Part shown: positions 3,998-20,426 of the stretch, piece after piece
Layout of the letters: every line of letters starts with the position of its first letter
How positions within the stretch are numbered: position 1 is the stretch's first letter
NCBI RefSeq assembly: GCF_033100135.1
Contig: NZ_CP136920.1
Coordinates: forward strand, 62,001-126,000
Reading direction: 5' to 3'
Source of the DNA: Rubellicoccus peritrichatus
GTDB lineage: Bacteria; Verrucomicrobiota; Verrucomicrobiia; Opitutales; Cerasicoccaceae
DNA length: 64,000 bases
Translations under genes and position numbers: made by a program
Notes under the pieces: model-generated
The model's input: only the letters and a program-made list of their open reading frames with translations
Database searches by the model: none
What the model was told of the DNA's origin: nothing

Positions 3998-6900
3998 TTA
4001 CTGCTCTGCAGATAACCTGACAAAACGTGCTCCAGTATCCGGTATCGGTGTTCGATCAACGACTTCAATTCGAACGGTTCCATCACCATTATCAACTGGA
4101 GTACCCTGCACCGTATAGGTGGGGCCGGAGTTCCAGGTAACCAGATCATCCGACACTTCAACTTTGACCGTCACGGTACCCAAATCATTAATCTGATCAA
4201 AAACCAGCTTCAGATAGTCACCATTATTGTCGTTCATAGTCGACATCTGCGGCAATGCGGCAGGAGCGTTATTATTGACATTTGGATCGAGCATTAAAAT
4301 GTATTCGAGTAAATTTGAGATCGAATCACCATCCGGGTCACTACTACTCAGAGCATCATCTCCAGACAACCCATTATTCGTCGCAAACGTTTCGTAGGCA
4401 TCTGCCGAGCCCGACTCAAAAGAATCAGCAATCAGTATATTGTCGATTGATACAGTAATTGCGAACCCTGAATCCAGGCGCATGCGGAAGTCCTTCGGTG
4501 TGCCCGTAAAACCGCCTTCCATCGCAATATTATCCAAGGCAAGGCTCTGCCCAATCCAGACTGAAGCCGACAGGGGCGAGACTGAGTGGCTGCCACCATC
4601 CGGCCCGGTGTAAGTCTCAGCACTGGCAGAACGATTCACATACCAGGTCCATGTCATCATGGTACCATCGGCAGTATAATCGCCAAACTGAGTGCTATTG
4701 ATCCTCACCTTGAACTCATCGGTGCCACTTCCGCGAACATTGAGCCTCGCAGCATGCGAACTATGAGCCCCACCGGTTCCGTAATCCACGACGGAACCGT
4801 AGTTTCCGATTTCAAGATAGTAGAGGCTCGAGAATGTCGTTGGATTAACGACCCCCATGTCGAAGGTTACTTTGATAAGCTCAGTACCATCAGGAAAGAG
4901 ATTGAGAATGGTAAACCCGGCATCATCATCAGCGCTTGTAGTACCGCTTCTTACATTCCGCAAGGCACCATCTTGGATTGAAAAAGTACCGCCATCCGAC
5001 TCGGCACTAATGTCTTCAAAGAACCGCGTGTTATCAGACGCATCGATGTAATCTCCAACGGTATTGAATAAAGCGAAGTCCTGAAAAAACAGACTGTCAC
5101 CAGCGACCACTGAAGACTCACTCACCGTAATATTTATATCTGCGAACCCAACCTGGTCGGAATCATCTGCAGACAGGCGCATCACATAGACACCAGGGTC
5201 TTCGAAGTCGACCATGGTAGTCAATGCCATCGGACTCTGTATATTGGCAATCGACGGTCCGCTGACCTGAGACCACAATGTCGTCACTGTTGAGCCGTCA
5301 GGCATTCCATCGTCGGTGAAAGAACCACTGACCTGTGTTTGATTGACTGGAAGATTCAGGGTGATATCCGAATCAACTGTGACCACGGGCTTTAGATTTT
5401 GGCTGCCTGAACCAGACTCACGAAAAAGTGCCGAATCCGGAATTCGTGTTTTATCAAGACTGCCACCTTCATAAAAAACATTGAGCGCCTGGCCGCCCGA
5501 AGCTTCAAAGAATTCAACACGGATGGAATGCTTGCCTGCTTTTAGGTCTATCACACCTTCCGCCTCCACAACACCATGCAAGCCATCGTTATCGACAACC
5601 TTAGTGTCGCCGATATAAAGAGCACTGCCATCATCCGAGCTGGTATAGAAAGTATATAGTGCAGACTCCGGAACCTCGACAAAGCCCTCGAAAACCATCC
5701 CAAAATGATGGACGGAATTATCGGTGTTGATAATGAAGTTTTCAATCGGCCCTGCAATACTTGGTGTCAAACTGGAGAAATCCGGCAACACCTGCCATGC
5801 CACAAAAGGATCCGAATCATTAACAAATCCTTGAAATGTCAGACCATTCTCAGTGCTTGCAGGCGCATCTGGATCACGAACATCCGTTACAGTTACGAAC
5901 ACAGTCGCCGTGCTCGGCGCATCCCCGTCAGTAATGGTATAATCGAAAGAATCGTCACCCACGAAGTTAAGCGCGGGCGTATAGCGAATTTTGTCGCCTT
6001 CCTGAACGGCAACACCGGAACTTGGTGTTCCCACATTCGTTATCGCAATTGAGGATGGTGCCGCGTCATAATCAAAATCATTGTCCAATACAGAGACCAA
6101 AACGGCCGTCTCCTCCCTCGTCGTAGCCGAGTCATCATCTGCTGCTACTGGCGAGTTCTGATTCGGATCAGGCGTTTCGAACATCTCCTCAATAAGCAAA
6201 TCGTCAAGCACCACAGTCATCATAGCGGAGGACGGAAACCTTACCCTGAAGTTGGGCAAGGTAGGAAAGCTTCCCTTTGCCTTAATATTATCGATAACCA
6301 GAACGCCATCAATCCAAAGGGACTGTCTCCGGTTCAGAAGTGTGCGATTGGTCCCATCAGGGCCCAGATATGCCTTGGGCGAGCCCGTGAAGTTCACATA
6401 CCACTCCATGTGGCTCGTCGAACCATCGGAAGTCATTGCCGGTGCACTGGTTCCATTCAACCGAGGCGCAAATCCGCTGCCTGATGTCCTGACTTCCATC
6501 CGCACACCGAGATCGGCATTGGACCCGTTGCTATTGTAATCTGTTACGGTGGGATAATCTCCAAACTCAAAGTAAAACAAAAGCCCACTTCCACTGGTGT
6601 GATCAAGCCCAAGATCGAAAGACGCCTTGAGCATTGTCGGTGGCCCGGAAAATCCTGTGGTCCAGGTCAGGCCGGCGCCGGCACTGTTCCCTTCCCGAAC
6701 GATCTGTAACTGACCGGAACCATTCACTGACCATGTTCCGCCACCAGGCTCCGCACTGATGTCGGTAAATTCCCAGTCCCCCGGTTCCGGGTTCTGATAG
6801 TAGACGAGATCGGTCGTCGAATTAAAATCCTGGGAGAACAAACCACTGATTGCTGGTGCCGCAATATCCGAGACAAGAATACGGATATCATCACTACCGG

Positions 6901-8581
6901 CCAATGCGCCATCATCTGCCTCGAGGCGCAGAACGTATTCGCCCAAAGCGTCAAAGGTCACAGTGGTGTCGACTGCTGTCGCATCACCAAAAGTAACAGA
7001 ACCCGGACCACTGACCTTGGACCATTGATAGGTCTGGTTACCTGGGTCAGGAAGCTGGTCATCCGTCACTGTCGCCGTGAGCGTGGTGGACATGGTTGAG
7101 TCATACAGAATCCGGGCGACTCCCGTATCCACAACCGGTGCCAGGTTATCCGCATCATTGAGCGCCTTGGTCCGAACCCAAAACTCTTCCGTCGTGCGGT
7201 TGTTCGCAGCATCAATGGCAATGATTTGAATCACATTCAAGTCACGCTCCAAAGGAATATCCGAAACGCTCCAGTTCGTTGTCCCGGTTGCAACCCCACT
7301 GGCTGGACCGCGGTTATTCTTCCAACGCACTTCAACGACACCAACGTTGTCCGATGCGGTTCCCGATAAGGAAATAGAATCGTAAGTGTGTTGAAAGACT
7401 TCGGTTCCCGATGTCGGAGTCGTAAAAGTAACTTGTGGCAGTTCGGTTTCCACTCCTTCAGGCAGGTAGCGTACTTTGATATTGTCACGGAACTTTAAGA
7501 CACCACCATTTCCGGTATTGTAGCTCGTCCCGACTGCTTCAATCACAATGATGTTCTCACCCTGCAAGAGTGGTATACCACTCACACTCCAATTGTCTGT
7601 TCCCGTCGCAGTGCCGGTGGCTTCTTCTTCATCCGGACCATACCGGCGCCAGTTAACCTCAGTCACAGCAGTTGTTCCATCCCCAAGCGTTCCGGACAAA
7701 TCGATGGTCGATTCCGTTGTCAGGTAATTCAAGTCAGTCGTCGGTGTCTCAATCCTGACATATGGATGATGAGACTCTACAGGCAATTGCCCCAAACGCT
7801 GCGCCATCATCCATTCGTAATAACCCGGAGTACCAAACCCAGCTCCTGAAACTCCATGGCCTCCTGTCTTGTATTGAGTCAGGATCGGTTTGCCGCCAAA
7901 CCGCATGACATGTAGATCATAGGATTCCGTGCCTTTATAACTGATTCCATCATTTTCCGCAGTGATGGCCCAGATGGGTTTATCTCGAAAAGGGTAAGCT
8001 TCTTTCGGTTGCCCAAATCCAACGCTTGGCCCTATCGCTGCAAAGATATCGGGAAACCAGGTCGCATAATAGAAGGCACCAGCCCCACCCATGGAAATAC
8101 CGGTTAGATAGATGCGGTCCGTATCCACATGGTAATCATTAGTCAGCTCATCCAGCAGCACCACAAAGGTATCAACGACTCTGGATGAAGTCCAGTTACC
8201 GGTTCCGGATTCCCCATCAATGACCACCTGAGGTGCGAAAACAAATGACTTTTGATAACTCTGGTTGGCATTATTCGTCCACTTGCCCGTGGCAGGATCA
8301 CGCTGAATACCATTCTTGGAACCATCGGGCAGTCCCTTTTCTCCCTGCCCATGCAAGTTAACGATCAACGGGTACTCGGTTGTCGTGTCGTCCGGGTCAT
8401 ATCCATCAGGAATCCAAAGAATATAGGGCATGGCAACATCCCCCTGATACAATCCACTGATCCACTCCCCTGCCCCACGGATAGTCAGGACCGGGATGAG
8501 AAACATAGCTTGAAGAATTAATAAACGGGATAGTGATCGCTTCATATTTTTCTTAATAAAATTAAACATCCTTGCACTCAT
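3998..8581 (-). CDS. Secreted modular esterase (alpha/beta hydrolase with Ig, PKD, cadherin-like and PA14 modules)
   Basis: A 1527-residue extracellular enzyme. After a signal segment (MKRSLSRLLILQAMF, residues 13-27) comes a feruloyl/acetyl-esterase-like alpha/beta hydrolase at about 40-265 with nucleophile S163 in GISMGG and likely D211 and H242 completing the triad. Then follow two Ig-like modules (275-370, 385-472), a PKD-like module (480-572), an unnamed module (580-803), a cadherin-like module (808-900), a PA14 module (910-1055, often carbohydrate-binding), another PKD-like module (1066-1153), a second copy of the unnamed module (1163-1389) and a Ca-binding-type DPDGDSISNLLEY stretch near 1415. 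The start codon overlaps the stop of the upstream esterase gene (TAATG), so translation is probably coupled. Inferred role: deacylation of a complex polysaccharide while bound to it. Confidence 0.85.
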   Translation of the reverse strand: MSARMFNFIKKNMKRSLSRLLILQAMFLIPVLTIRGAGEWISGLYQGDVAMPYILWIPDGYDPDDTTTEYPLIVNLHGQGEKGLPDGSKNGIQRDPATGKWTNNANQSYQKSFVFAPQVVIDGESGTGNWTSSRVVDTFVVLLDELTNDYHVDTDRIYLTGISMGGAGAFYYATWFPDIFAAIGPSVGFGQPKEAYPFRDKPIWAITAENDGISYKGTESYDLHVMRFGGKPILTQYKTGGHGVSGAGFGTPGYYEWMMAQRLGQLPVESHHPYVRIETPTTDLNYLTTESTIDLSGTLGDGTTAVTEVNWRRYGPDEEEATGTATGTDNWSVSGIPLLQGENIIVIEAVGTSYNTGNGGVLKFRDNIKVRYLPEGVETELPQVTFTTPTSGTEVFQHTYDSISLSGTASDNVGVVEVRWKNNRGPASGVATGTTNWSVSDIPLERDLNVIQIIAIDAANNRTTEEFWVRTKALNDADNLAPVVDTGVARILYDSTMSTTLTATVTDDQLPDPGNQTYQWSKVSGPGSVTFGDATAVDTTVTFDALGEYVLRLEADDGALAGSDDIRILVSDIAAPAISGLFSQDFNSTTDLVYYQNPEPGDWEFTDISAEPGGGTWSVNGSGQLQIVREGNSAGAGLTWTTGFSGPPTMLKASFDLGLDHTSGSGLLFYFEFGDYPTVTDYNSNGSNADLGVRMEVRTSGSGFAPRLNGTSAPAMTSDGSTSHMEWYVNFTGSPKAYLGPDGTNRTLLNRRQSLWIDGVLVIDNIKAKGSFPTLPNFRVRFPSSAMMTVVLDDLLIEEMFETPDPNQNSPVAADDDSATTREETAVLVSVLDNDFDYDAAPSSIAITNVGTPSSGVAVQEGDKIRYTPALNFVGDDSFDYTITDGDAPSTATVFVTVTDVRDPDAPASTENGLTFQGFVNDSDPFVAWQVLPDFSSLTPSIAGPIENFIINTDNSVHHFGMVFEGFVEVPESALYTFYTSSDDGSALYIGDTKVVDNDGLHGVVEAEGVIDLKAGKHSIRVEFFEASGGQALNVFYEGGSLDKTRIPDSALFRESGSGSQNLKPVVTVDSDITLNLPVNQTQVSGSFTDDGMPDGSTVTTLWSQVSGPSIANIQSPMALTTMVDFEDPGVYVMRLSADDSDQVGFADINITVSESSVVAGDSLFFQDFALFNTVGDYIDASDNTRFFEDISAESDGGTFSIQDGALRNVRSGTTSADDDAGFTILNLFPDGTELIKVTFDMGVVNPTTFSSLYYLEIGNYGSVVDYGTGGAHSSHAARLNVRGSGTDEFKVRINSTQFGDYTADGTMMTWTWYVNRSASAETYTGPDGGSHSVSPLSASVWIGQSLALDNIAMEGGFTGTPKDFRMRLDSGFAITVSIDNILIADSFESGSADAYETFATNNGLSGDDALSSSDPDGDSISNLLEYILMLDPNVNNNAPAALPQMSTMNDNNGDYLKLVFDQINDLGTVTVKVEVSDDLVTWNSGPTYTVQGTPVDNGDGTVRIEVVDRTPIPDTGARFVRLSAEQ
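4415..5095 (-). other. Unnamed repeated module, copy 2 (residues 1163-1389 of the modular esterase)
   Basis: The protein segment starts with FFQDF, contains EDISAESDGGTFSI, YYLEIGNYGSVVDYG, WYVNRS and TGPDGG, and ends DNILIADSFE. It aligns by eye with residues 580-803 of the same protein and with the C-terminus of the beta-helix protein encoded at 11965-15558. Confidence 0.7.
6173..6844 (-). other. Unnamed repeated module, copy 1 (residues 580-803 of the modular esterase)
   Basis: The protein segment starts FSQDF, contains TDISAEPGGGTWSV, YFEFGDYPTVTDY, WYVNFTGS and LGPDG, and ends DDLLIEEMFE. The shared pattern is an opening QDF, a DISAE..GG.WSV block, a Y.E.G.Y..V.DY block, WYVN followed by GPDG, then FR.R and DDLLI near the end. 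I do not recognise it as a named family. Confidence 0.7.
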
Positions 8582-10056
8582 TAGCTGCTACTTCGAAATG
8601 GCGATGCAGGCAGATTTGCCTGATTGACGAGGTTCACTTCGGGATTTCCTTCCCATGCATAACGAACAGCAACAGGAGACGTAATCTCGGAGCTGGAAAC
8701 AATGACAGTATTGTTTTCGATCCTGGCGTCTGCGGAAACAAACTGACCATCCTGACCAGCAACGGCGAATGCCTTGGGCGCCATTCCGTCAATGGTTTTC
8801 AAACCACCTTCTGCGTAGTCAAAAGAGACAACCACTTCGTTGCCTTTTATGTCACATGCTGAGAAAAGCGGACCAGTCGCTGGTCCCTTGACGTCGATTC
8901 CATAAACATCATGCAGAGCAATCCGCGCCAGACGTTCGCCCACATCCTTCTTGTTCTTTGGATGAAGATCGTTGGCCTCCCCGATGTCGATGGTTACAGC
9001 CATACCCGTATTAGGCAATTCAAGTGTCTTAAATTGTGATTCCCTAAGCTCCGCCCACTGACTTCCCTTTGGGCCCGATTGCTTCTCCCGATAGTTCGGC
9101 AATTGCACAAACAGAAATGGCAAATCCTGCCGCCCCCATGCGCTACGCCAGCTCTCTATCAAGGTTGGAAAAAGCACCGCATACTGACTGGCTTGTTTCA
9201 CATTGGATTCTCCCTGATACCAGATCACTCCCCGCAGGCCAAAAAACACCAAAGGGCGAATCATATTATCATAAAGCACACCTGGTATGCGTTGTGTCCC
9301 TTTCGGCTCCTGTCCTGCTGCTATCTGTTTGCTCGCTTTTCTCAAATTCCCAGAGCGAGTCTTCGCCAGATATCCGAGTTGTGGATGTCCTTCAAATGCT
9401 TCCGGCGCCGTCCATGGCGCCGCCGCAGTGCCTCCCCAACTCGATCCGATCAAACCGACCGGCACATCCAGTGACTCATGAAGTTGCTTTCCAAAGTAAT
9501 AAGCGATAGCAGAGAATTCAGCAGCAGAATCCGGCTGACACACTTCCCATTTTCCTTCCAGTGATGGCTCGCCCTCGACACTTGCGTTCTGAGCGACAGT
9601 GAAAAAGCGGATCTCAGTGTTGTCTGCCGCTGCAATCACCGACTTGGCATTAGCGGATTTCTTCAAAGGCCAGTGCATGTTTGACTGGCCGGAACAAAGC
9701 CACACTTCGCCCACCAGAATGTCTCCAACACTCAAACGCTCATTGCCAGACGCAATCTCCAGTGCAATGGGTCCACCGTCTCGCAAAGCAGGGAGTTCAC
9801 ATTGCCATTTCCCATCCTGCCCGACTGTGGCAGTCGCTTTTTCCGGCCCCAGCTTCAGCATGATAGAAGCACCAGGACTGCCACTCCCCCACAGCCTGAC
9901 AGGAAGCCCCTGTTGCAAAACCATTCCATCCGAAATGACTGCCGCTAAACGAAGCTCTGCAGCAGCATTTGCAGATAATGTAGCCGCGGGCATTGCTAAA
10001 ATCATGAATAGAGCCAACAGGCCCCAACATCCAACGGGATCCAATATACGTTTCAT
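8581..10056 (-). CDS. Sialate O-acetylesterase-family (SGNH-type) esterase, secreted
   Basis: A 491-residue enzyme with a signal peptide (residues 1-33). Family motifs are visible: CSGQSNM with nucleophile S125, VIWYQGESN at 278-285, and DLHP with D363 and H365 as the other catalytic residues. Members remove acetyl groups from sialic acids or, in CE6-type enzymes, from plant and algal polysaccharides. The length and the small beta-sandwich segment before the GQSNM motif fit the family. The downstream modular esterase gene begins inside this gene's stop codon (TAATG), so the two esterases are probably made together. Substrate is inferred only: the neighbouring sulfatase and beta-helix protein point to a sulfated, acetylated polysaccharide. 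Confidence 0.88.
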   Translation of the reverse strand: MKRILDPVGCWGLLALFMILAMPAATLSANAAAELRLAAVISDGMVLQQGLPVRLWGSGSPGASIMLKLGPEKATATVGQDGKWQCELPALRDGGPIALEIASGNERLSVGDILVGEVWLCSGQSNMHWPLKKSANAKSVIAAADNTEIRFFTVAQNASVEGEPSLEGKWEVCQPDSAAEFSAIAYYFGKQLHESLDVPVGLIGSSWGGTAAAPWTAPEAFEGHPQLGYLAKTRSGNLRKASKQIAAGQEPKGTQRIPGVLYDNMIRPLVFFGLRGVIWYQGESNVKQASQYAVLFPTLIESWRSAWGRQDLPFLFVQLPNYREKQSGPKGSQWAELRESQFKTLELPNTGMAVTIDIGEANDLHPKNKKDVGERLARIALHDVYGIDVKGPATGPLFSACDIKGNEVVVSFDYAEGGLKTIDGMAPKAFAVAGQDGQFVSADARIENNTVIVSSSEITSPVAVRYAWEGNPEVNLVNQANLPASPFRSSS

Positions 10057-10148
10057 GAGTGGTGGAGGAACAAAGGGCGCGTTACCTACGATTCAATCCT
10101 CAGATTGAGCCCCAATTGCTGGATGCATGCTTTCAGGGCTGCATATAA

Positions 10149-10164
10149 ATGTCAAGTATTACGT
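10149..10164 (-). promoter_or_regulatory. Candidate operator joined to a -35 box, upstream of the acetylesterase
   Basis: On the minus strand ACGTAATACTT runs directly into TTGACA (10150-10155), a consensus -35 element; a -10 at the expected distance (AAGCAT) is weak. Location is about 95 bases before the start codon. The arrangement would suit an activator touching the polymerase. Inference from sequence only. Confidence 0.35.
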
Positions 10165-10287
10165 TTGCGCTATTATTGAATTACAGATTTGCTTCATTTA
10201 AGAATAAAAAAGCACCACAAGAGGTAAAAATTATGCTAATAGATGCATAAATCGCTTTTTCATACAACAGACGATATTCTTTTGATA

Positions 10288-10298
10288 AAGTATTACGT
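10288..10298 (-). promoter_or_regulatory. Second exact copy of the ACGTAATACTT motif
   Basis: Identical 11-mer to the one at 10154-10164, 134 bases further upstream of the acetylesterase start. Related copies lie upstream of the beta-helix gene (15700-15710) and at 15912-15922. Confidence 0.35.
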
Positions 10299-10526
10299 GT
10301 GTTCAAAAATAAGAAAATCATGCCAAGGCTCTATAAATGATTTGGATCAAATTCCCAGATTGGCCAGGAATTGTTTGAGCCTCAATGAGCCTGCAACCTG
10401 TTCCATCCACCCAAACAGCTAAGCCCACCATGGAACAGAAATATTACCCCAACGATCATAGCAGACTCTTGAGGTCCAATCTGAATGGAGTCACTGACAG
10501 CCTACCTCAGCGAGGAACCATGCTAG

Positions 10527-11891
10527 TCAATTCTTAAGTCCTCTTTCCCGAAGGACAGCCTCAAGGGGATCCTGCGGACATCCATGCGGTTTCGCCATTT
10601 GCTCAGCCACCCAATCATCCATAATCCCTCTGCACTTCTGTACGATCTCACTATGCTCATGAGCAATATTCCGGGTCTGATAGGGATCATCCAGCATATC
10701 ATAAAGCTCTTCCGATTCCCAGTTGTTGAATTCCCATGAATCGTAATTCCTGATATACAAGTGGGTTTTCGTCCGAACTGCACGCTGGACAGTATAGAGG
10801 CCGCTATCCCAGACCAAAAACTCCCTGCCCTCATCATCCTCGCTCATGACATTTTTCTTATAGGACTTCCCATCCCACTCCTTCGGTAGAGGCATGTCCA
10901 ACAGGTCGCAGATGGTTGGAGCATAATCGACATTGTACATGAAGGCACTGGAGCATGAATCCGGCACGGTCAGACCAGGCCAACGAATGATCAATGGTAT
11001 CCGATGAATGCACTCGTCCACATTCACATGATCGGAGTAAATCCCATGCTCCCCAAAAGAATCACCATGGTCACTTGAAATAATGATGACTGCCTCATCA
11101 AGCACGCCTTGCCGATCTAGCTCGTCAAGCACCTCCTTAATATGCGAATCGACATATGAGATGGATGTGTCGTATCCAGTGATCAGCTTCTCAAAATCCT
11201 GACGATTGGATATCGACCCTGGCATCAGCGGATAAGTGCTTTCATCATTCTTAAACTGACCATGGGGCGTGAATGGACCAGTAAGGCCCTGTTGTGCTGC
11301 TATCGCATCATCATCGGGCCAGGACTGCGTAACGGGATAATCATCAAAACGCTCCGCCAGGGAAGCATCCATTTTGTAACAACGATGCGTATCCCAGTAA
11401 TTAATATGCAGGTAATAATCCTCCCGCGTGGCATGCTCCTGAAGCCATGGAAGCACCTTCGCATTGACCTCTTCAGCGGTCTCAGCCCCGCACTTCATGT
11501 TTGGCGAGTGAAACTCACTCCAACCACACATAAACCATGTGGCATAATGTCGGTCTGCAAAATTAGAAAAGCACACCGGATCATAGCCGTTTGCCTTTAA
11601 CTGTCGTGGAAACATTTCGCTGTCAGGATACGGCCCACCGTAGGCCTGCGCATTGATATTGAATTGCGCACCCGCACCGTGATTGGAAAGCATACCATTG
11701 CGAATACCAAAGCGCCCCGACATCAGACATGACCGGGAAGGAACACAAGGCGAGCTTGCACAATAGTAACGATCAAAACGGACACCATCCTGAGCGATGC
11801 TGTCTATGGTTGGCGATGTTGGACGGTCATAACCATAGCAACCCAAATGATCAGGCCGCAGGCTATCGATGTCGAAGTAGATAATTCTCAT
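10527..11891 (-). CDS. Cys-type sulfatase (alkaline phosphatase superfamily)
   Basis: A 454-residue sulfatase. The signature is C49-V-P-S-R in SSPCVPSRSCLMSGR, where the cysteine must be converted to formylglycine for activity. The metal-binding N-terminus MRIIYFDIDSLRPDHLGCYG and the later SSDHGDSFGEHG are also typical. No signal peptide is visible, so either it acts in the cytoplasm on imported oligosaccharides or the start is further upstream. It follows the beta-helix gene by 73 bases on the same strand and could be cotranscribed. No recognisable maturase (anSME or FGE) lies next to it; the FGE-like protein at 33099-34055 lacks the catalytic cysteines. Likely role: removing sulfate esters from a marine polysaccharide. 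Confidence 0.92.
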   Translation of the reverse strand: MRIIYFDIDSLRPDHLGCYGYDRPTSPTIDSIAQDGVRFDRYYCASSPCVPSRSCLMSGRFGIRNGMLSNHGAGAQFNINAQAYGGPYPDSEMFPRQLKANGYDPVCFSNFADRHYATWFMCGWSEFHSPNMKCGAETAEEVNAKVLPWLQEHATREDYYLHINYWDTHRCYKMDASLAERFDDYPVTQSWPDDDAIAAQQGLTGPFTPHGQFKNDESTYPLMPGSISNRQDFEKLITGYDTSISYVDSHIKEVLDELDRQGVLDEAVIIISSDHGDSFGEHGIYSDHVNVDECIHRIPLIIRWPGLTVPDSCSSAFMYNVDYAPTICDLLDMPLPKEWDGKSYKKNVMSEDDEGREFLVWDSGLYTVQRAVRTKTHLYIRNYDSWEFNNWESEELYDMLDDPYQTRNIAHEHSEIVQKCRGIMDDWVAEQMAKPHGCPQDPLEAVLRERGLKN

Positions 11892-11964
11892 AAACCCTTT
11901 GTATTCATTTCATACTTACGACACCGAAGCCTGTATGCAACCGAAACGGCCTCATCACAAACGA

Positions 11965-14900
11965 TCAAAAAACATCCTTGATTACCAGGTCATCAAAAGA
12001 TGCCGTCACACTATTACTTGAGGAAAAACGAACCCTGAAGTCATTGATCGCAGTACCACTGAAACTGCCTTGAGTGATGTCATTGAAGAGCAACTGACCT
12101 TCAAGCCAGATATCACTTCTATCAGCGGCGAGCGACTGCTGCTGACCATTGGGATCGGTGTAGTTCACGGACGAACCACTTCTGTTAACGTACCAATCCA
12201 GCTTGCCCCAGCTACCATCAGCAAGATACATAGCGGAGTTAGTACTGGCGATGCGGAGCTTGAATTCACCCGCACCATCACCCTTGACTTCAAGACGCTG
12301 ATAAATGGATGAGTAAGAACCGCCGCTACCATAGTTGGTCACACTGGACCAGTTACCGAGCTCAATGACAAAGAGCTCATTCCAAACATTCCCGACATTA
12401 CTAAGAGCCATATCGACGGAAAAGTGCAGCAAATCAGGGTCGCCGAGAACATCATCCGTAACCCGTGCAAGGCCGGCGTCATTACTTGAACCGGAGCTCG
12501 TTCCACGGACAATTTGCAGAGCTCCATCGACAACACTCCAATTACCGCCATTAGACTCAGCACTGATGTCATCCAACTTTCCAAGAGCCAGGCTGCCCGA
12601 ACCAACATAACTGGCCACATTCGACGATGAATCAAAGTTCTGACTGAACACTGCCGCACTTGAAACCGTCACCATAAAGCTGACAGAACCCGTGTTGTAA
12701 CCATCACTAACAATCAGAGTAACCGTCGCACTACCAAGGCCACCGTTTGACTGGATCGTCATCGTGCGATTTAAACCTGTGCCGGAGATAACCACATCCG
12801 ATGCATCAACAACTGAAGGGTCGCTTGAAACTGCCCATACGCTCAAGTCACCTGCAACGCTGTCACTATCGGAGAGCGTAATGGCGATAGCCCCCGAGCC
12901 GGCCCCCAAGCCCAGAGCAAGATTGGAGACAGCCCCTATGGTCGGATGCCCGCCAGCTGAACCGAATCCTGTTTTTTCACGAAAAATAACTCCTCCAATG
13001 TTTGGCTGGCCATCCGGAGTTGTCGTAAAGAATTCGAGATCCATACGACCAGCTGCATCTGTGAATGTATTTTCCAATCTGCCAATCTCAGAGGAATTAT
13101 CTTTGATATTAATACTATCAATCGCACCGGAATTGTATTCCAGCAGACTTGAAGTCAACTCCTCGCCAACACCTTCACGATAGCCAGTATAAGTCACATC
13201 GTAAAAACTGTTGGGGTCCAACCCAGTAAGTACAAACACACAAGGATTCTCATAGGGATTCCGAATACGCAATCCAACTCGCGTCACTTCAGAAGGAAAC
13301 TCATCAATAACCCGCCCGGCGGCATTCTTATATGACTTATAGTGCTCCGAATAACCTCCGTTGATATTCTCGATAAGCATACTCCAACCTGAGGTTGCAC
13401 CATTAATGTCATACAGCGTCGTTGTTGTCGGATTACCTGCAGTGCGTAAACCCTGACTGTCATTTGCCAGGTCCGTCCAGTCCGGCAAGTTAGCCGCACC
13501 GTAACGATGCATATTCACCTTAACCTCTTTGGAAACTGTGATGTTAGGCTCGGAGACAAGTATGGTTCGATAAACCGCCTCAGCCACATTACCGGCAACA
13601 TCCGTAACCGGCAGCTCATACCGAATGATATATTGCCCGGGAACATTAACGTTGATCGGCGCACCAACCCAGGTCACCTGAACTTGATCCGTCATGTCGC
13701 CATCGACATTATCAATCGCGATAAAGCCAGGATCAACAAAGGCACTTCCCTCGAGAACACTCATGTCCCCACCCGTCAATGTGATCACGGGAGCTTCATA
13801 ATCTGCAGTGCCACTTTGATTTGCCGGATTATAAGTTAAGCCCATTCCACGATAATTGTAAAACGTATCCGACTTCAGTCGAAGATCCAAAGGAGGCATA
13901 TCTCGGCCATTCCAGGTCAACTGCTGCCAATAAGCGGGGGAATTATTCGGGTCGTTATTCCCGGCATTATCAGCGATGCATTCAAAGAACTTCGTCTGAC
14001 CATTTGTATCCCAATAGTAGACAATGTCCCCAGTCTTGTATTCAATAGCTTCGCCGTTCCTCGCAACAGTTCCATAGGTAGGCGCCCACCGAACAATGGC
14101 ACGATAATCAATATCATCAGCAAAACCTGAATTCTGAAATTTGATGATCGGCGTTTCAACAAAAGTATTGTTCTGACTGGAAACATTACTGCCGTTTCCG
14201 CTGGAAACTTCATAAGTCGGCAGCTCAGGGTTAAACAGATTCCCCTCAAGTGAAATACTAGCCTGACTATTGGAAATATTCAGCCCGGCAAGCGGCTGTG
14301 ACAACCCGGGATCAGAATCCATCGTATGGGGAAAAGTTATGTGGCCATAGACGTTGTTCGTGAATTCGTAAGGAGCAATCCCATCACTGCCCTCAATGAT
14401 ACTGATCCGGAAACGCCCCATGCCAACATAGTTATTGTCAAAGATGACCTTCTTGCTCGCATCAGGAAATGTCCGGCCCGACTCCGTCTCACGCCACCGA
14501 ATAGTCTGCATGTTGTGCTTTCCACCAACAAAAATATTATCACGAACCGTGACACCACCCTCAACATGCGAGAACTGATGGGTACCATTCTGGAACACAA
14601 AGAAAGGATCTCGATACGTCGTAGCGGTTCCGACAATGATGTTATTCTCGATAATCGAGTTTTCAGCCAAATTGTCCGTCTGGATTGCTTCCGTGCCTGC
14701 AAAGACAATAATATTGTTACGCAAAATCAGTTCGGTGATATCCTGACCAAGTGCCGACGTACTGTATGAAACATACATGCCTTCACCATTGGTAAATCCG
14801 GAAAAGGTATCCTGAACATCGACAACGACACGTTCCGGCACTGCGGGATTATCGGTCTTCAAATTAAAACCGGCAAAGCCACCACCCCACGCTGCGACGT

Positions 14901-15558
14901 AATCCACCTTACAAGTAACAAAACCATAAGCCCTGACACAATTAGGGTTGGTTGGACCGTAAAGAATACCGGACCAGCGTTGATTTCCCCAAAAACCATA
15001 CTTCTCATAAAAATCACCCGTGTCAAAATCCTGACCTCCATTGTGACCAAGAAAATCCGGATGACCTGTCTGCGCAGCCGGATCATACTTACCCGTGAGA
15101 TGAAAATGTTCGAAGTTCGCGATTTCAAATGTGCGATACTGCGAGGATACTTGAACATCTCCCCAACGCACTTGGCCACCGAGGTTGGTGATCACTGTCG
15201 GTTGCTGAGCCGTGTTGGTGCAATTCGTACCATTAATATAGATTCGACCATAAACACCCTGCCATATATGGATCTTCTTGCCCAATCCCACACTGACTTC
15301 GCTCGCACTCAAATATATACTGTCGTAAGCAGCATCCTTCTCAAAAATAAGTAAGTCTCCTTCATTCACCGTTGGCCAAAAAGCTGCATCAGCAACAGTA
15401 GCATGACGGTTCGTGGTTGTATCCGGATCAGCAAACGCCGCCTGCGCCAGAAGCAAAAGGCCGATAACAAGCTGTAACATCAAACTGAGTGAAGGCTTGG
15501 TATTGCCCAGGCACAGCCTGTTGCAATGAGAATATGTGGGGTAGTTTCGCAATCTCAT
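11965..15558 (-). CDS. Secreted parallel beta-helix protein with DUF5011-like and lectin-like modules
   Basis: A 1197-residue protein with a signal peptide (hydrophobic LMLQLVIGLLLLAQAAFA at about 26-43). Residues 45-470 contain recurring N-rich rungs (ILRNNIIVFAGTEA, IIENNIIVG) typical of right-handed beta-helices such as polysaccharide lyases and glycosidases; I cannot assign a catalytic residue. A DUF5011-type Ig module (VITLTGGDMSVLEGSAFVD, VDGDMTDQV) follows at about 590-675, then a beta-rich module at about 680-864 that resembles the C-terminus of the SGNH protein at 20464-21879, a cadherin-like module (865-968), and at 969-1197 a third copy of the unnamed module found twice in the modular esterase. 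Likely the depolymerising or binding component of the locus. Confidence 0.8.
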   Translation of the reverse strand: MRLRNYPTYSHCNRLCLGNTKPSLSLMLQLVIGLLLLAQAAFADPDTTTNRHATVADAAFWPTVNEGDLLIFEKDAAYDSIYLSASEVSVGLGKKIHIWQGVYGRIYINGTNCTNTAQQPTVITNLGGQVRWGDVQVSSQYRTFEIANFEHFHLTGKYDPAAQTGHPDFLGHNGGQDFDTGDFYEKYGFWGNQRWSGILYGPTNPNCVRAYGFVTCKVDYVAAWGGGFAGFNLKTDNPAVPERVVVDVQDTFSGFTNGEGMYVSYSTSALGQDITELILRNNIIVFAGTEAIQTDNLAENSIIENNIIVGTATTYRDPFFVFQNGTHQFSHVEGGVTVRDNIFVGGKHNMQTIRWRETESGRTFPDASKKVIFDNNYVGMGRFRISIIEGSDGIAPYEFTNNVYGHITFPHTMDSDPGLSQPLAGLNISNSQASISLEGNLFNPELPTYEVSSGNGSNVSSQNNTFVETPIIKFQNSGFADDIDYRAIVRWAPTYGTVARNGEAIEYKTGDIVYYWDTNGQTKFFECIADNAGNNDPNNSPAYWQQLTWNGRDMPPLDLRLKSDTFYNYRGMGLTYNPANQSGTADYEAPVITLTGGDMSVLEGSAFVDPGFIAIDNVDGDMTDQVQVTWVGAPINVNVPGQYIIRYELPVTDVAGNVAEAVYRTILVSEPNITVSKEVKVNMHRYGAANLPDWTDLANDSQGLRTAGNPTTTTLYDINGATSGWSMLIENINGGYSEHYKSYKNAAGRVIDEFPSEVTRVGLRIRNPYENPCVFVLTGLDPNSFYDVTYTGYREGVGEELTSSLLEYNSGAIDSINIKDNSSEIGRLENTFTDAAGRMDLEFFTTTPDGQPNIGGVIFREKTGFGSAGGHPTIGAVSNLALGLGAGSGAIAITLSDSDSVAGDLSVWAVSSDPSVVDASDVVISGTGLNRTMTIQSNGGLGSATVTLIVSDGYNTGSVSFMVTVSSAAVFSQNFDSSSNVASYVGSGSLALGKLDDISAESNGGNWSVVDGALQIVRGTSSGSSNDAGLARVTDDVLGDPDLLHFSVDMALSNVGNVWNELFVIELGNWSSVTNYGSGGSYSSIYQRLEVKGDGAGEFKLRIASTNSAMYLADGSWGKLDWYVNRSGSSVNYTDPNGQQQSLAADRSDIWLEGQLLFNDITQGSFSGTAINDFRVRFSSSNSVTASFDDLVIKDVF
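11968..12654 (-). other. Unnamed repeated module, copy 3 (C-terminus of the beta-helix protein)
   Basis: Residues 969-1197: starts FSQNF, contains DDISAESNGGNWSV, ELGNWSSVTNYG, WYVNRSGS and DPNG, then NDFRVRF, and ends DDLVIKDVF. Same motif order as the copies at 6173-6844 and 4415-5095. Confidence 0.7.
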
Positions 15559-15922: not shown

Positions 15923-16027
15923 TTGCTTCAACAAACCAAAGAAACTCAGCTCAACACAAACTGAGCATACGGAAACACCCAAACCACATTGGGCTGATTC
16001 CAAATAAAACAACCCTTGATTAGCCCA

Positions 16028-19000
16028 ATGCCTCATTCGTCCCCCAATACCAGCGCTAGTCTCTTCCAAAAAACAGGCAACAGGCAACAGCGGCAAACCA
16101 TCAGCCCAAACGGATTCAGCCTCATCATTGCCATAACCCTGATGGCACTCACCTTCCTCGTCCTGATTGGATTATCAACATCCGCATTAACGCATTTGAG
16201 CGTCACTCGCAACCAGAGTAACATAACCCAAGCCAGGCAAAATGCACTCCTAGGGCTGCAAGTAGCGATGGGACAACTACAAGTCGCAGCAGGTCCCGAT
16301 CAACGCATCACAGCACCTGCCGACCTGGCCGGCGCCAGCGATGACCTAAAAAATTACATCGGCGTTTGGGACACAACAAATCCAACAGCAGCACCCACAT
16401 GGCTGGTCTCTGGCGGATTTAACCCAACGACAAACAGCCCAGGCTGGAACGCATCAGGCGAAGCAAAGAGTACAAACGATATTCTCCTTGTTGGCAAAAA
16501 TTCTGTTAACGCAAGTATCGACACAAACGGCAGCGGCCTACCAGACGACATCATAACGGCTCCAAAGGAAATGATCATTTCTGATGGTATTGATACCGGA
16601 GCCTTCGCCTATTGGATTGGTGATGAAAGCCAAAAAGCCCGTGTCAATTTATTCTCACAGGGTAGCGGCTGGGAAGGCATCGATCAAAACCTCCAAGCCA
16701 CAATGGATTTTAATACCCTAACCCAACAGGGACTCGATGAACTCGCAGGACTGGAATCCATCGACATTAGTGAGCCAGGAAAAATCGCACGTAGCTATGA
16801 GCTAAGCGACATAAGTGCTGGAACCGGTGTTGATGAACCAACCCTAGGCCAATACTTCCACTCCCTTACATTTCATTCAACGGGCATACCAACTAATGTT
16901 GTGAATGGTGGTCTCAAAAAGGACCTATCGCTGGCTTTTGAAATGGATGAAGACGATTTTCGAGACTCCGAATTTGCGGCCGGATCTTCCGACAGCTACA
17001 CGAACATCATTGATAGCCCGAACTACGAAGTGGAATTCCTTTTCAAAGAACCCGCAAATGGAGGCGATATCCGCGGGCCAACCTGGGAGTTACTACGCAA
17101 CCACTATCGCCTCTACAAAAAGGTTGCCGACGCCAACGACGCACCAGTTATCACAGCACGCCCTTCCTATCCCAACACACTGGAACAACAAAACCAGTCA
17201 GGAAACAGTGGAGACAAGTCTTACATCTACCAAATGTCAAAAGGAGGATCAGGAACTGTAGACCCTTTTATTGCTGATCAGATACATGGAGCCGACGTTG
17301 CGTATCCATCAGAGCAACAAATAATGCCATTAGTTCAAAGGGTGATGTTCTTCCTCACACTAAAAAATATCAACGGCAATCTGAACATTGTGCTAAAGCC
17401 TTTTGTCGTCCTGTGGAATCCGTATAATGTCAGCCTCGAGTTCGACGCAATGCGTGTCACTGCACGCAGTGTGGATTTCCAAATAAATGTCACAGTGAAG
17501 GAAAGTGAATTTGGGCCAGTAAAAACGATTACAGAAATTGATGCGAATAATAATCCGATAACACGAGAGCTAAGAGGCAACGGTACGCTACAAAGTTACT
17601 TCGAGAAGAAACTGGGAGCGAGCAATCAGTATTTCCAATTGGTTATCAAAAAAGACACAGGATCCAATTTCTCAGCGCCATTAAGCCTGGAGCCTGGAGA
17701 AATCCAAATATACTCTGCGGCAAACAGCACGCCGCAGCCCATCTCAACGTTCACGCTAATCATGAACGAAGGTTTTAACTTTGCTGGTGGTTTCTCAATG
17801 GATGAATTCCCATATGGCGAGTATACAGGAAACAGAATTCGCACCATAAATGAATTAGACTCTGGCCTTATTCCGATGTCCTCGATTGATGCGGATGACT
17901 GGATAGAAACAGGTATTCGCACAGCCTATGATGGTGGAAGATACTTCCGTATTGATACCACTTACGTAGAAAGCGAAAGCCTCCCTGCTGCCATTGACAA
18001 TGCGTCACAGAGAGCACAAAGCAACAAAGAGGATCGAACAAACTATAAGCATTTCTCAATGCAAACTGACAATGTTTACGAATTTCATCATCAGAACAAC
18101 CTTGGTAGTGTATTCGATCCTTCGGGAGCTGATGCCGGCAACAATTCAGGCCATGGTGTTTCTGCCTCTCTGCTCAAGAATGACCCGCAATATGAAGAGC
18201 CTTTTGTTTCTTTCGATCATTACCTGAAACCCATTGCCGATGATCATCGCCCTATTTCCACAGGCGGATGGACCAACCCAAGGGCCATGTTCACATCGCT
18301 TCAGGGCTCTGATGGAGATGTCCTTGATGAATCATCATTTGGTGGATTCAACACAGTGATATCAGCTCCGGCAACATTCGAGCAGCATATGCCACAGGAT
18401 GACACATTTGGACGTGGTTACTGGGGAAGAACAGATGAATCCCAGGAAGGGTCAACTCACATAACCATGTTCGACCTACCAACTACGCCTCCCCTTTCAC
18501 TAGCCGATTTCAGACATGCTGATATTTTCTCATTTTATCGCACACCAGCATATGCGATTGGAAACTCACGAGCAAACCCATTCATATCACGCGATAAGCG
18601 CTGGGAGAAGCTCGTTTATGTCTCCACACCAGACCTCTCTCTGCTAGCGAATGAAGCTCTCTTTGATGATTACTTTCTTTCAGGTATTACGCCCGAATTT
18701 AACAATGCTTCTTCCAACTATTCAGACAAACGATCCGTTGCAAAAGTAATAGAAGATTACTCAAACGAAGATAGTGACCTATTCTCAATCAATCCGCGCA
18801 TGGCGTTTGCAGAAGAGCGTACGCTATCCGACGTAACTGACACCCTACTGAGTGGCAACGAACTGGATGCGACGGCCTATCAGCGTTCAGCCACATACAT
18901 AGACATTCTCGGTGCATTCAATGTCAACTCAACCAACGTGAATGCGTGGAAAACACTGTTGGCCAGCATGAAGAAAACGCAAATGTCAGTGATCAATTCG

Positions 19001-19720
19001 GATGGCAGTCTTTCGCTCTTAACCGATGGCACATCACCTGACACAAACAACCCCTTCAATAATGCCATATGGGGGCGAGTGCAAAATCCGCTAACCAATG
19101 TAACTAATGGATCCAGCACAGGATGGCGCGGATGGGAAAACCTTGATGACAATCAACTCGACGACCTTGCGACTGAAATTGTTAATCAAGTGAAGTTACG
19201 TGGACCCTTCATGTCGATGGCGGACTTCGTTAATCGCTCACTTGAGAATGATGAAACTGGCATCGCCGGTGCACTTCAGGCAGCCATCGACACCGCTAAT
19301 ATTAACGCTGATGTTTTAAATGTCGTAGGCTCGCAAACTGAATACACTGGATTTGACTTATCAGATACAGATCCAAACAAACGAAATTTCGTCGATGTGG
19401 AGCACTCATACGGTCAATCAGGTGATGGTGTTCCTGGATTCATGACACAGGGCGATTTACTCGCTCCGATAGCACCGGTGCTGACCGTTCGTTCTGACAC
19501 TTTTAAAATTCGGAGCTACGGAGAATCCATAAACCCAATAACTGGGAAAACGGATGGGAAAGCCTGGTGCGAAGCAATCGTTCAACGCATTCCTGACTAC
19601 ATCGACCCAACACTCAATGGAGGCGAAGCGCCCTGGAACGCGCCTACTGGCATAAACGATACTCTCGGCCGCAGCTTTGTCGTAAAATCAATTCGCTGGC
19701 TTAACGAAAATGAAATTTAG
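16028..19720 (+). CDS. Verru_Chthon cassette protein A-like, prepilin-type transmembrane protein
   Basis: A 1230-residue protein with a prepilin-type N-terminus: NGFSLIIAITLMALTFLVLIG at about residues 29-49 preceded by a polar leader, as in PilX-like minor pilins. Overall size and this start match the very long Verru_Chthon cassette protein A family described in Verrucomicrobia. The remaining roughly 1150 residues have no domain I can name. The usual B, C and D partners (short pseudopilins) are absent; the next gene overlaps by 11 bases and encodes an unrelated small secreted protein. ATG 16028 is chosen; a TTG at 16016 would add four residues. Neither has a clear ribosome site. Likely part of a type II secretion or pilus-like surface structure. 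Confidence 0.75.
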   Translation: MPHSSPNTSASLFQKTGNRQQRQTISPNGFSLIIAITLMALTFLVLIGLSTSALTHLSVTRNQSNITQARQNALLGLQVAMGQLQVAAGPDQRITAPADLAGASDDLKNYIGVWDTTNPTAAPTWLVSGGFNPTTNSPGWNASGEAKSTNDILLVGKNSVNASIDTNGSGLPDDIITAPKEMIISDGIDTGAFAYWIGDESQKARVNLFSQGSGWEGIDQNLQATMDFNTLTQQGLDELAGLESIDISEPGKIARSYELSDISAGTGVDEPTLGQYFHSLTFHSTGIPTNVVNGGLKKDLSLAFEMDEDDFRDSEFAAGSSDSYTNIIDSPNYEVEFLFKEPANGGDIRGPTWELLRNHYRLYKKVADANDAPVITARPSYPNTLEQQNQSGNSGDKSYIYQMSKGGSGTVDPFIADQIHGADVAYPSEQQIMPLVQRVMFFLTLKNINGNLNIVLKPFVVLWNPYNVSLEFDAMRVTARSVDFQINVTVKESEFGPVKTITEIDANNNPITRELRGNGTLQSYFEKKLGASNQYFQLVIKKDTGSNFSAPLSLEPGEIQIYSAANSTPQPISTFTLIMNEGFNFAGGFSMDEFPYGEYTGNRIRTINELDSGLIPMSSIDADDWIETGIRTAYDGGRYFRIDTTYVESESLPAAIDNASQRAQSNKEDRTNYKHFSMQTDNVYEFHHQNNLGSVFDPSGADAGNNSGHGVSASLLKNDPQYEEPFVSFDHYLKPIADDHRPISTGGWTNPRAMFTSLQGSDGDVLDESSFGGFNTVISAPATFEQHMPQDDTFGRGYWGRTDESQEGSTHITMFDLPTTPPLSLADFRHADIFSFYRTPAYAIGNSRANPFISRDKRWEKLVYVSTPDLSLLANEALFDDYFLSGITPEFNNASSNYSDKRSVAKVIEDYSNEDSDLFSINPRMAFAEERTLSDVTDTLLSGNELDATAYQRSATYIDILGAFNVNSTNVNAWKTLLASMKKTQMSVINSDGSLSLLTDGTSPDTNNPFNNAIWGRVQNPLTNVTNGSSTGWRGWENLDDNQLDDLATEIVNQVKLRGPFMSMADFVNRSLENDETGIAGALQAAIDTANINADVLNVVGSQTEYTGFDLSDTDPNKRNFVDVEHSYGQSGDGVPGFMTQGDLLAPIAPVLTVRSDTFKIRSYGESINPITGKTDGKAWCEAIVQRIPDYIDPTLNGGEAPWNAPTGINDTLGRSFVVKSIRWLNENEI

Positions 19721-20426
19721 CATCTCTACAGCCCTGGTATGCGCATTAGTCAGCCTTCACTCTATAGTGATGGCTCAAACCGCTGACCAAAGTAATAATA
19801 TCCATTTAACCTACAGCGCCATCGCATGGGATAAACCAATCCATGGTAAGCTTTTTATTCAAAAGGATGGTGAATACACTCCGCTCAATCTCAATGCATC
19901 CAATCGCACGACAAAGCGCTACTATACTGGACCAAACCCGTTGATCTTCTACGGAAAATCATCCAACCCTGATGGCACGACTCAGTTTAAACCGATTGCC
20001 GAGGCGACCATTCCCAAAGGAGTCAAACAAGCGCTGTTGATTTTCATGGATGAGCCCGAAGAAACATCGAGCACAGGCAATCAGTATAAAGTCATTACAC
20101 TCGATGACAGCGAATCCGTATTTCCGAGAAACAGCTATCGATTCATGAACTGGACAGGAGAAAAAGTAGCTGGCAAGCTGGGAGATCGAGTGTTCTCGCT
20201 GACACCCCGTTCCACCGAAACAGTTATGGCAAAGGAAAGCGAAAGGAATCTCCTCCCTTTCCAGTTGGTGGAACTAAAAGACAATACGCACTCTAGAATT
20301 TATTCAAAAACGTGGCACTTCCAACCAAACACCAGAAAACTAGTCATACTGATGCCACCTCAAGAAGGCAAAATGGAGAAAATAACCACCAAAATCATTT
20401 CCGATTACATATCCCCAGCATCATGA
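19710..20426 (+). CDS. Secreted protein of unknown function, coupled to the prepilin-like gene
   Basis: A 238-residue protein with a clear signal peptide (MKFSISTALVCALVSLHSIVMAQ). Mature sequence is polar and predicted beta-rich (HLTYSAIAWDKPIHGKLFI, KVITLDDSESVF). No family recognised. Its start codon overlaps the last 11 bases of the preceding gene (ATGAAATTTAG), which makes translational coupling and a joint function with the Verru_Chthon-A-like protein likely. Confidence 0.8.
   Translation: MKFSISTALVCALVSLHSIVMAQTADQSNNIHLTYSAIAWDKPIHGKLFIQKDGEYTPLNLNASNRTTKRYYTGPNPLIFYGKSSNPDGTTQFKPIAEATIPKGVKQALLIFMDEPEETSSTGNQYKVITLDDSESVFPRNSYRFMNWTGEKVAGKLGDRVFSLTPRSTETVMAKESERNLLPFQLVELKDNTHSRIYSKTWHFQPNTRKLVILMPPQEGKMEKITTKIISDYISPAS

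Follow-up and report, generated by a model that had tools for sequence, protein, structure and literature searches.

A polysaccharide locus of Rubellicoccus peritrichatus raises the question of what an unnamed domain contributes when it recurs in nearby secreted proteins of different build. The locus lies in a stretch of 64,000 nucleotides (contig NZ_CP136920.1, positions 62,001 to 126,000; hereafter the window) from a genome that is a single contig of 5.8 Mb, of the same family as G069 and G094 in the genome search. Three copies of the domain, here called the module, occur in a modular esterase (c1 and c2) and in a beta-helix-like protein (c3). Comparisons of sequence and predicted structure show that the module is a real, uncatalogued and lineage-enriched accessory domain with a lectin-type predicted fold, and a role in glycan binding is probable.

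Three homologous copies in the window

The two hosts and their module copies are:

3998..8581, minus strand: open reading frame of a modular secreted esterase, 1527 amino acids, with an alpha/beta-hydrolase, an immunoglobulin (Ig)-type domain, c1, Big_9, PA14, PKD, c2 and a C-terminal tail
6176..6859, minus strand: module copy c1, residues 575-802 of the esterase
4415..5116, minus strand: module copy c2, residues 1156-1389 of the esterase
11965..15558, minus strand: beta-helix-like secreted protein, 1197 amino acids, with an N-terminal region read by eye as a beta-helix, an Ig-like domain and c3
11968..12666, minus strand: module copy c3, the C-terminal 233 residues of the 1197-residue protein, up to the stop codon

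The pairwise identities of c1, c2 and c3 are 36, 38 and 38% over 224-229 aligned residues, with BLASTP E values of 1.8e-40, 1.3e-41 and 1.4e-46 (126-142 bits), compared with 24.6-30.8 bits for the best of 1000 shuffles per pair. The homology of the three copies, proposed in a sequence-only reading of the window, is thus borne out, and their actual ends lie within a few residues of the positions proposed. The shared motifs listed in that reading are mostly right, but c2 has GGTFS instead of GG.WS, and c3 has DPNG instead of GPDG and NY instead of DY.

Copies and hosts in the genome

A profile made from the three window copies finds 21 copies in 12 proteins of the genome at E ≤ 1e-3, so that the count of three proposed earlier holds for the window alone (c1 matches at E 6.1e-115 but is itself part of the profile). 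Thirteen copies are found in eight esterase-type proteins and six in two giants of 2300-2500 amino acids with three copies each. The remaining hosts, with one copy each, are the beta-helix-like protein and a small protein of 270 amino acids (L028), where a divergent copy is followed by a PEP-CTERM-like tail. Seven of the eight esterases were labelled by similarity to the window esterase domain and the eighth, L026_5766, by 56% identity to L023_6758; among the module hosts scanned, only the window protein has an esterase-type Pfam domain above cut-off.

All 12 hosts have a 12-residue stretch with a mean hydropathy of at least 1.9 near the N-terminus, which fits export, as judged by hydropathy and not by a signal-peptide program. 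The module is N-terminal, internal or C-terminal in its hosts and forms the exact C-terminus in seven of them. Eleven of the 12 have an extensive N-terminal portion that is an enzyme or could be one; it is recognised as such in the eight esterase-type proteins only. The earlier statement that the module is always found in secreted enzymes fails, because the twelfth host and several proteins in relatives are small and consist only of the module and a PEP-CTERM-like tail.

The window esterase domain has matches in 17 places in the genome, seven of them in module-bearing proteins (L026_5766 is absent from this list) and ten in proteins without the module; the module is absent from all ten sequences. 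In the eight module-free paralogues scanned with Pfam (all except L125 and L126), malectin was found in three and CBM9_1 in one above cut-off, and DUF1349 in four below its cut-off. The accessory slot is thus also filled by known sugar-binding domains.

With its 17 esterase-domain places, the genome holds secreted esterases as a large family whose accessory domains are exchangeable. Two tandem paralogues (L022:3533-8263 and 8859-13541) are 70% identical overall, with 92% identity in one run of 150 residues close to residue 1200 but 45% at the N-terminal end, an unevenness in sequence that suggests conversion in the accessory part. A repeated stretch of about 150 residues starting with GNWN was seen by eye in the paralogues L117, L118, L120, L121, L123, L124 and L125. 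It has no Pfam name above cut-off in the paralogues scanned, which excludes L125, and is possibly another uncatalogued accessory domain.

Predicted fold and family membership

AlphaFold2 was run on c3 with eight further sequences and gave an almost entirely beta structure with a predicted local distance difference test score (pLDDT) of 88.4 and a predicted template modelling score (pTM) of 0.88. In Foldseek, 179 PDB chains reach E ≤ 1e-3. A phage carbohydrate esterase, matched in its C-terminal domain, and X122 domains head the list; lectins, sialidases and further binding domains of the fold come next. The best VIA-align score among the matches listed was for residues 413-614 of BT_1020 (Z 18.1, 2.6 A over 176 residues). 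Residues 51-241 of the V. cholerae sialidase gave Z 15.8 (2.9 A, 178 residues, 13% identity), the Emp46p and Emp47p lectin domains Z 15.1-15.8, ERGIC-53 Z 13.9-14.9, and calreticulin, VIP36 and legume lectins Z 13.4-14.2. The 50 matches listed span Z 13.4-18.1 over 173-192 residues, far above the best Z of 7-8 typically reached by models without a clear match. Given these scores and the lectin and sialidase matches, the module is, in its predicted structure, a concanavalin A-like lectin/glucanase sandwich, that is, a two-sheet all-beta jelly roll. The comparison with LamG and carbohydrate-binding module (CBM) folds suggested earlier therefore ends in a lectin/LamG-type sandwich.

The lectin domains of sialidases (BT_1020 413-614 and the V. 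cholerae N-terminal domain) share with the module the fold, a length of about 200 residues and the position as an accessory on a carbohydrate enzyme, but identity is 12-14%, there is no Pfam CBM match and the module hosts are not sialidases by Pfam. The V. cholerae domain, which we take to be CBM40, is structurally alike, but many other lectins score alike and the module is not filed as CBM40. L-type lectins (Emp46p/Emp47p, ERGIC-53, VIP36) and legume lectins have the same fold (Z 13.4-15.8) but only 5-10% identity. The C-terminal domain of phage phi24B_21 (6yp6) is the best Foldseek match (E 3.2e-8) and is also attached to an esterase; it differs in belonging to a phage protein and in its 13% identity, with a VIA-align Z of 15.4 at 3.4 A. 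X122 of Teredinibacter turnerae (8q28, 8q29, 8q2a; Foldseek E 3e-7) is likewise a jelly-roll accessory domain of large secreted proteins, but its hosts are redox proteins, identity is 11-14% and the likeness is in fold only. Profile searches of PDB sequences gave no X122 chain at E ≤ 10, though HMMER filters may drop weak ones.

A clear match to a Pfam CBM or LamG family, which the sequence-only reading had named as the result that would speak against a new module, failed to appear at E ≤ 1 in any of the 21 copies in the genome or in 13 diverse copies. This includes Laminin_G_3 (PF13385), which is of the same fold class by description. One copy matches PA14 at 12.4 bits against a cut-off of 24, and the module is covered by no NCBIfam family or PDB sequence family. 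A profile match to RsgI3 (6qe7, E 0.0031) is local, spanning only 35 residues, and was not used. Searches of the open-licence PMC literature listed no paper whose title or abstract opening names the module. With a known fold and a role of a well-known type, it is probably the family that is new and not the kind of system. A Laminin_G_3 protein adjoins one of the module clusters (L026:4703-5602).

Distribution in Verrucomicrobiota

Whole-genome searches covered Verrucomicrobiota in overlapping draws, and the counts are lower bounds, since no more than 7, 10 or 19 candidates per genome were scored in the order, phylum and class searches. At least 21 of 273 genomes have the module in the order search (E ≤ 1e-5), with E < 1e-50 in five, all of the same family as R. 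peritrichatus. The phylum search gave at least 17 of 387 genomes (E ≤ 1e-6) and the search of the class of G344 at least 12 of 146, G344 itself being in the query. The values for G239 and G223 (E 1e-58 and 1e-60) and the G344 matches are circular, as these sequences were already in the query, and were set aside; independent values are 2.5e-33 and 5.2e-32 in the order search and 3.3e-25 and 3.9e-21 in the phylum search. Named genomes with the module are Cerasicoccus arenae, C. frondis and Pelagicoccus mobilis. Locus L031 of G069 is identical throughout to part of the C. arenae locus L060, which makes G069 C. arenae or a near equivalent, and a stretch of G094 is contained in the same way in L061 of C. 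frondis. A genome-contig search gave no loci with query A1 and three with query A4. No relatives were found in viral contigs, in plasmids (queries c3 and L034) or in phages (query L060_897 copy only).

Distant relatives of the module are located C-terminal to a sulfatase (L100), on polysaccharide lyase 8 (PL8) proteins (L101, L116) and on glycoside hydrolase 16 (GH16)-like (L070), pectate-lyase-like (L065) and CBM96-bearing (L037) proteins. The stand-alone module with a PEP-CTERM-like tail, recognised by eye, is found in L034, L035, L097, L075 and L115. The P. mobilis counterpart of the beta-helix-like protein (L059) has two complete modules plus an interrupted third; the repeats among which they lie look, by eye, like the same Ig-like domain.

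A probable role in glycan binding

The module probably lacks catalytic activity and serves as a lectin-like binding domain by which secreted enzymes are held on glycan; we infer both the carbohydrate binding and the avidity. Secreted esterases and other proteins that probably attack glycans would carry one to three modules, spaced by Ig-, PKD- and cadherin-type linkers. Each copy would add weak affinity for glycan, and the copies together would keep the enzyme on a target that is insoluble or bound to a surface, during the action of the N-terminal domain. The module is contiguous within carbohydrate-active enzymes, as CAZy defines a CBM, in the PL8 (L101/L116), GH16-like (L070), sulfatase (L100) and esterase hosts.

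Residues kept in at least 90% of 42 core copies include F7, Q9, F11, Y20, I34, W43, R54, R68, G104, N161, Y169, W187 and D225. R211, R213 and K128 are kept in 76-86%; strand alternation in the strand table suggests that they point outward, which makes them candidate contacts for an acidic sugar. A sulfated-glycan ligand, as envisaged in the sequence-only reading, is unsupported. The genome has 52 Pfam sulfatase (PF00884) rows, two of which are one gene, and with the 51 positions used, four of eight module loci were within 15 kb of a sulfatase compared with 20% of random points (p 0.058, not significant). The link also sits ill with the strongly acidic modules, whose median net charge is -16 over 49 copies.

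Several observations weigh against glycan binding by enzyme-borne modules. The main warning, by analogy, comes from X122, which is of the same fold class and for which no clear activity or binding was found (PMC10916295). No catalytic family was identified in the giants or the beta-helix-like region, and to call these hosts enzymes is presumptive. The first 800 residues of one giant gave only weak, unrelated PDB matches with phmmer (best E 0.046); the beta-helix-like region has no Pfam match, only weak and unrelated PDB matches with phmmer (best E 0.14), and no usable fold by AlphaFold2 from two sequences (pLDDT 39.5). In the PL8 and GH16-like hosts the sequence link is confined to the last 80-100 residues of the profile. 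Finally, Lipocalin_4 (PF13648) matches five of the 21 copies at E ≤ 1, the best at 9.3e-5, and one of the 13 diverse copies at E 0.53. For three of the five, the match covers 32-43 residues and scores 11.6-13.9 bits, where the cut-off is 22.4; on the same scale the best copy would reach about 24 bits, so that it may graze the cut-off. As the AlphaFold2 model gives a sandwich, we tentatively read this match as local strand resemblance.

Phylogeny and the matched terminal modules

The tree comprises 49 copies; the duplicate row L061 (the same stretch as L092) was dropped, and partial copies in L059 and L101 were left out. The esterase orthologues of two Cerasicoccus genomes have a single module, with which c2 groups (L089/L092, support 100/100). 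The partner of c3 is the module in the Cerasicoccus counterparts of the beta-helix-like protein (99/93). c1 stands without a near neighbour, and a clade of c1 and c2 is rejected by the approximately unbiased (AU) test (p-AU 0.002); for this and the following AU tests, the groups were picked after the tree was seen. Because c2 and c3 group by protein across genera, the copies split before the genera did, in agreement with the old divergence suggested from the window alone.

A giant adjoins an esterase in three clusters, two paralogous ones in R. peritrichatus (A and B) and one in G117. The inner modules of the giants group by position across clusters (support 100/100 and 100/99). The first modules of the cluster esterases fall into one group of seven mixed with other esterases, with no clean orthologue group. 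The terminal modules of the giant and of the adjoining, otherwise unrelated esterase pair within each cluster and not with their orthologues: a single group of the three giants' terminal modules is rejected (p-AU 7e-5), as is one of the three esterases' (p-AU 1.5e-6). Identity between giant and esterase is 77% in cluster B, 68% in G117 and 65% in cluster A, compared with 60-63% between orthologues, an excess that is clear for cluster B and small for cluster A. The DUF1349-like 200 residues before the terminal module have no consistent excess, with 65-66% within clusters, 58-63% among giants and 64-68% among esterases.

Since the terminal modules pair within clusters while the preceding region has no consistent excess, the pattern suggests local gene conversion that homogenises the terminal modules, and this would fit a shared target of both proteins. 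A bolder proposal, which is improbable as a whole, is that the terminal module is a shared address tag: gene conversion would keep neighbours matching and so direct them to one common glycan or surface partner, the inner modules would diverge towards other ligands, and a free form of the lectin, represented by the small proteins with PEP-CTERM-like tails, would coat the matrix. The matched terminal modules are the part most worth specialist attention.

Alternative roles of the module

The module might instead bind a protein, or the surface or exopolymer matrix of the producer itself, and so keep enzymes at the cell without recognising their substrate. The pairing of terminal modules of unrelated neighbours is expected if both meet the same partner, but a shared glycan target would homogenise them equally well. 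The C-terminal position in seven of 12 hosts is also in line with docking, but copies are N-terminal (L060_897) and internal as well. The stand-alone modules with a PEP-CTERM-like tail, in L028 and in the five relatives above, point in the same direction, as PEP-CTERM sorting is linked with exopolysaccharide in PMC1569441. The L028 tail was read by eye; it received no Pfam call and only NCBIfam matches below cut-off. The tail is moreover additional to the module, and the module is therefore not the anchor in those small proteins. The best structural matches are mostly carbohydrate-recognition domains, and docking or retention of this kind is unlikely.

It is very improbable that the module is itself catalytic, as a lyase or glycosidase of concanavalin A-like fold. 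PL7 alginate lyases and a GH131 protein are among the Foldseek matches, and conservation among core copies is 98% for Y169, 100% for N161 and 95% for R54; Tyr, Asn and Arg are residue types used by some lyases. Y169 is, however, part of the hairpin that precedes GPDG, and its role may be a structural one. Among the residues kept in at least 90% of core copies, only D225 is acidic (D33 reaches 88%), so two-carboxylate catalysis is unlikely, and the presence of up to three copies beside a separate esterase domain, like the stand-alone form, fits an accessory role.

That the module works as a C-terminal signal for secretion or sorting, in the manner of the terminal domains known from type IX secretion, is hardly credible, because although the module often ends exactly at the C-terminus, 140-240 further residues follow it in the window esterase, L024, L025, L027 and L060_4168, the module of L060_897 comes directly after the N-terminal hydrophobic segment, and the small proteins carry another tail after it.

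Other features of the window

The remaining domains of the two hosts and the genes between them are:

7820..8437, minus strand: alpha/beta-hydrolase (esterase) domain, similar in sequence to the esterase of PDB entry 3doh (E 2.3e-21)
5891..6157, minus strand: Big_9 bacterial Ig domain between c1 and c2 (E 6.5e-15)
5483..5710, minus strand: PA14 domain, the second recognised accessory domain of the esterase (E 1.6e-17)
5123..5371, minus strand: K319L-like PKD domain, immediately preceding c2 (E 5.2e-16)
8581..10056, minus strand: neighbouring SASA carbohydrate esterase (E 1.7e-20)
10527..11891, minus strand: neighbouring sulfatase (E 6.2e-40)
13555..13785, minus strand: Bact_surface_Ig-like domain of the 1197-residue protein (E 6.1e-11)

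Weaker PDB matches of the window esterase domain are to polyhydroxybutyrate (PHB)-depolymerase and ferulic acid esterase entries. The N-terminal region of the 1197-residue protein has a 47% identical counterpart in P. mobilis (L059).

A large gene with a pseudopilin-like N-terminus is located at 16016-19720, with TIGR02600 (Verru_Chthon cassette protein A) at E 0.0057, far below cut-off, and GspK at 0.0083. Large pseudopilin-like genes are also found beside other module-bearing clusters, at L026:18185-19501 (TIGR02600 E 6.5e-7, weak and far below cut-off) and, by likeness to the window gene judged by eye, at L023:18785-19501 with L024:1-3135, the L024 part without NCBIfam match. A protein of 238-239 amino acids follows in the window (19710-20426) and in L024 (3104-3820). 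C. frondis L061 has, near the esterase orthologue, minus-strand genes of 1152 (9147-12602) and 278 amino acids (8317-9150) in a like order; they have no NCBIfam match and resemble the window pair by eye. The window also encodes a 2225-residue protein with RHS repeats (38126-44803, minus strand; PF05593 E 1.3e-25).

Significance

Marine Verrucomicrobiota have large secreted proteins with unnamed accessory parts. A family of 21 copies with a confidently predicted lectin-type fold and no LamG, CBM or NCBIfam match, on hosts ranging from esterases to PL8, offers a handle on what these proteins recognise. If binding holds, the module would found a new family of binding modules, and the matching of terminal modules within a locus would tell which enzymes share a target.

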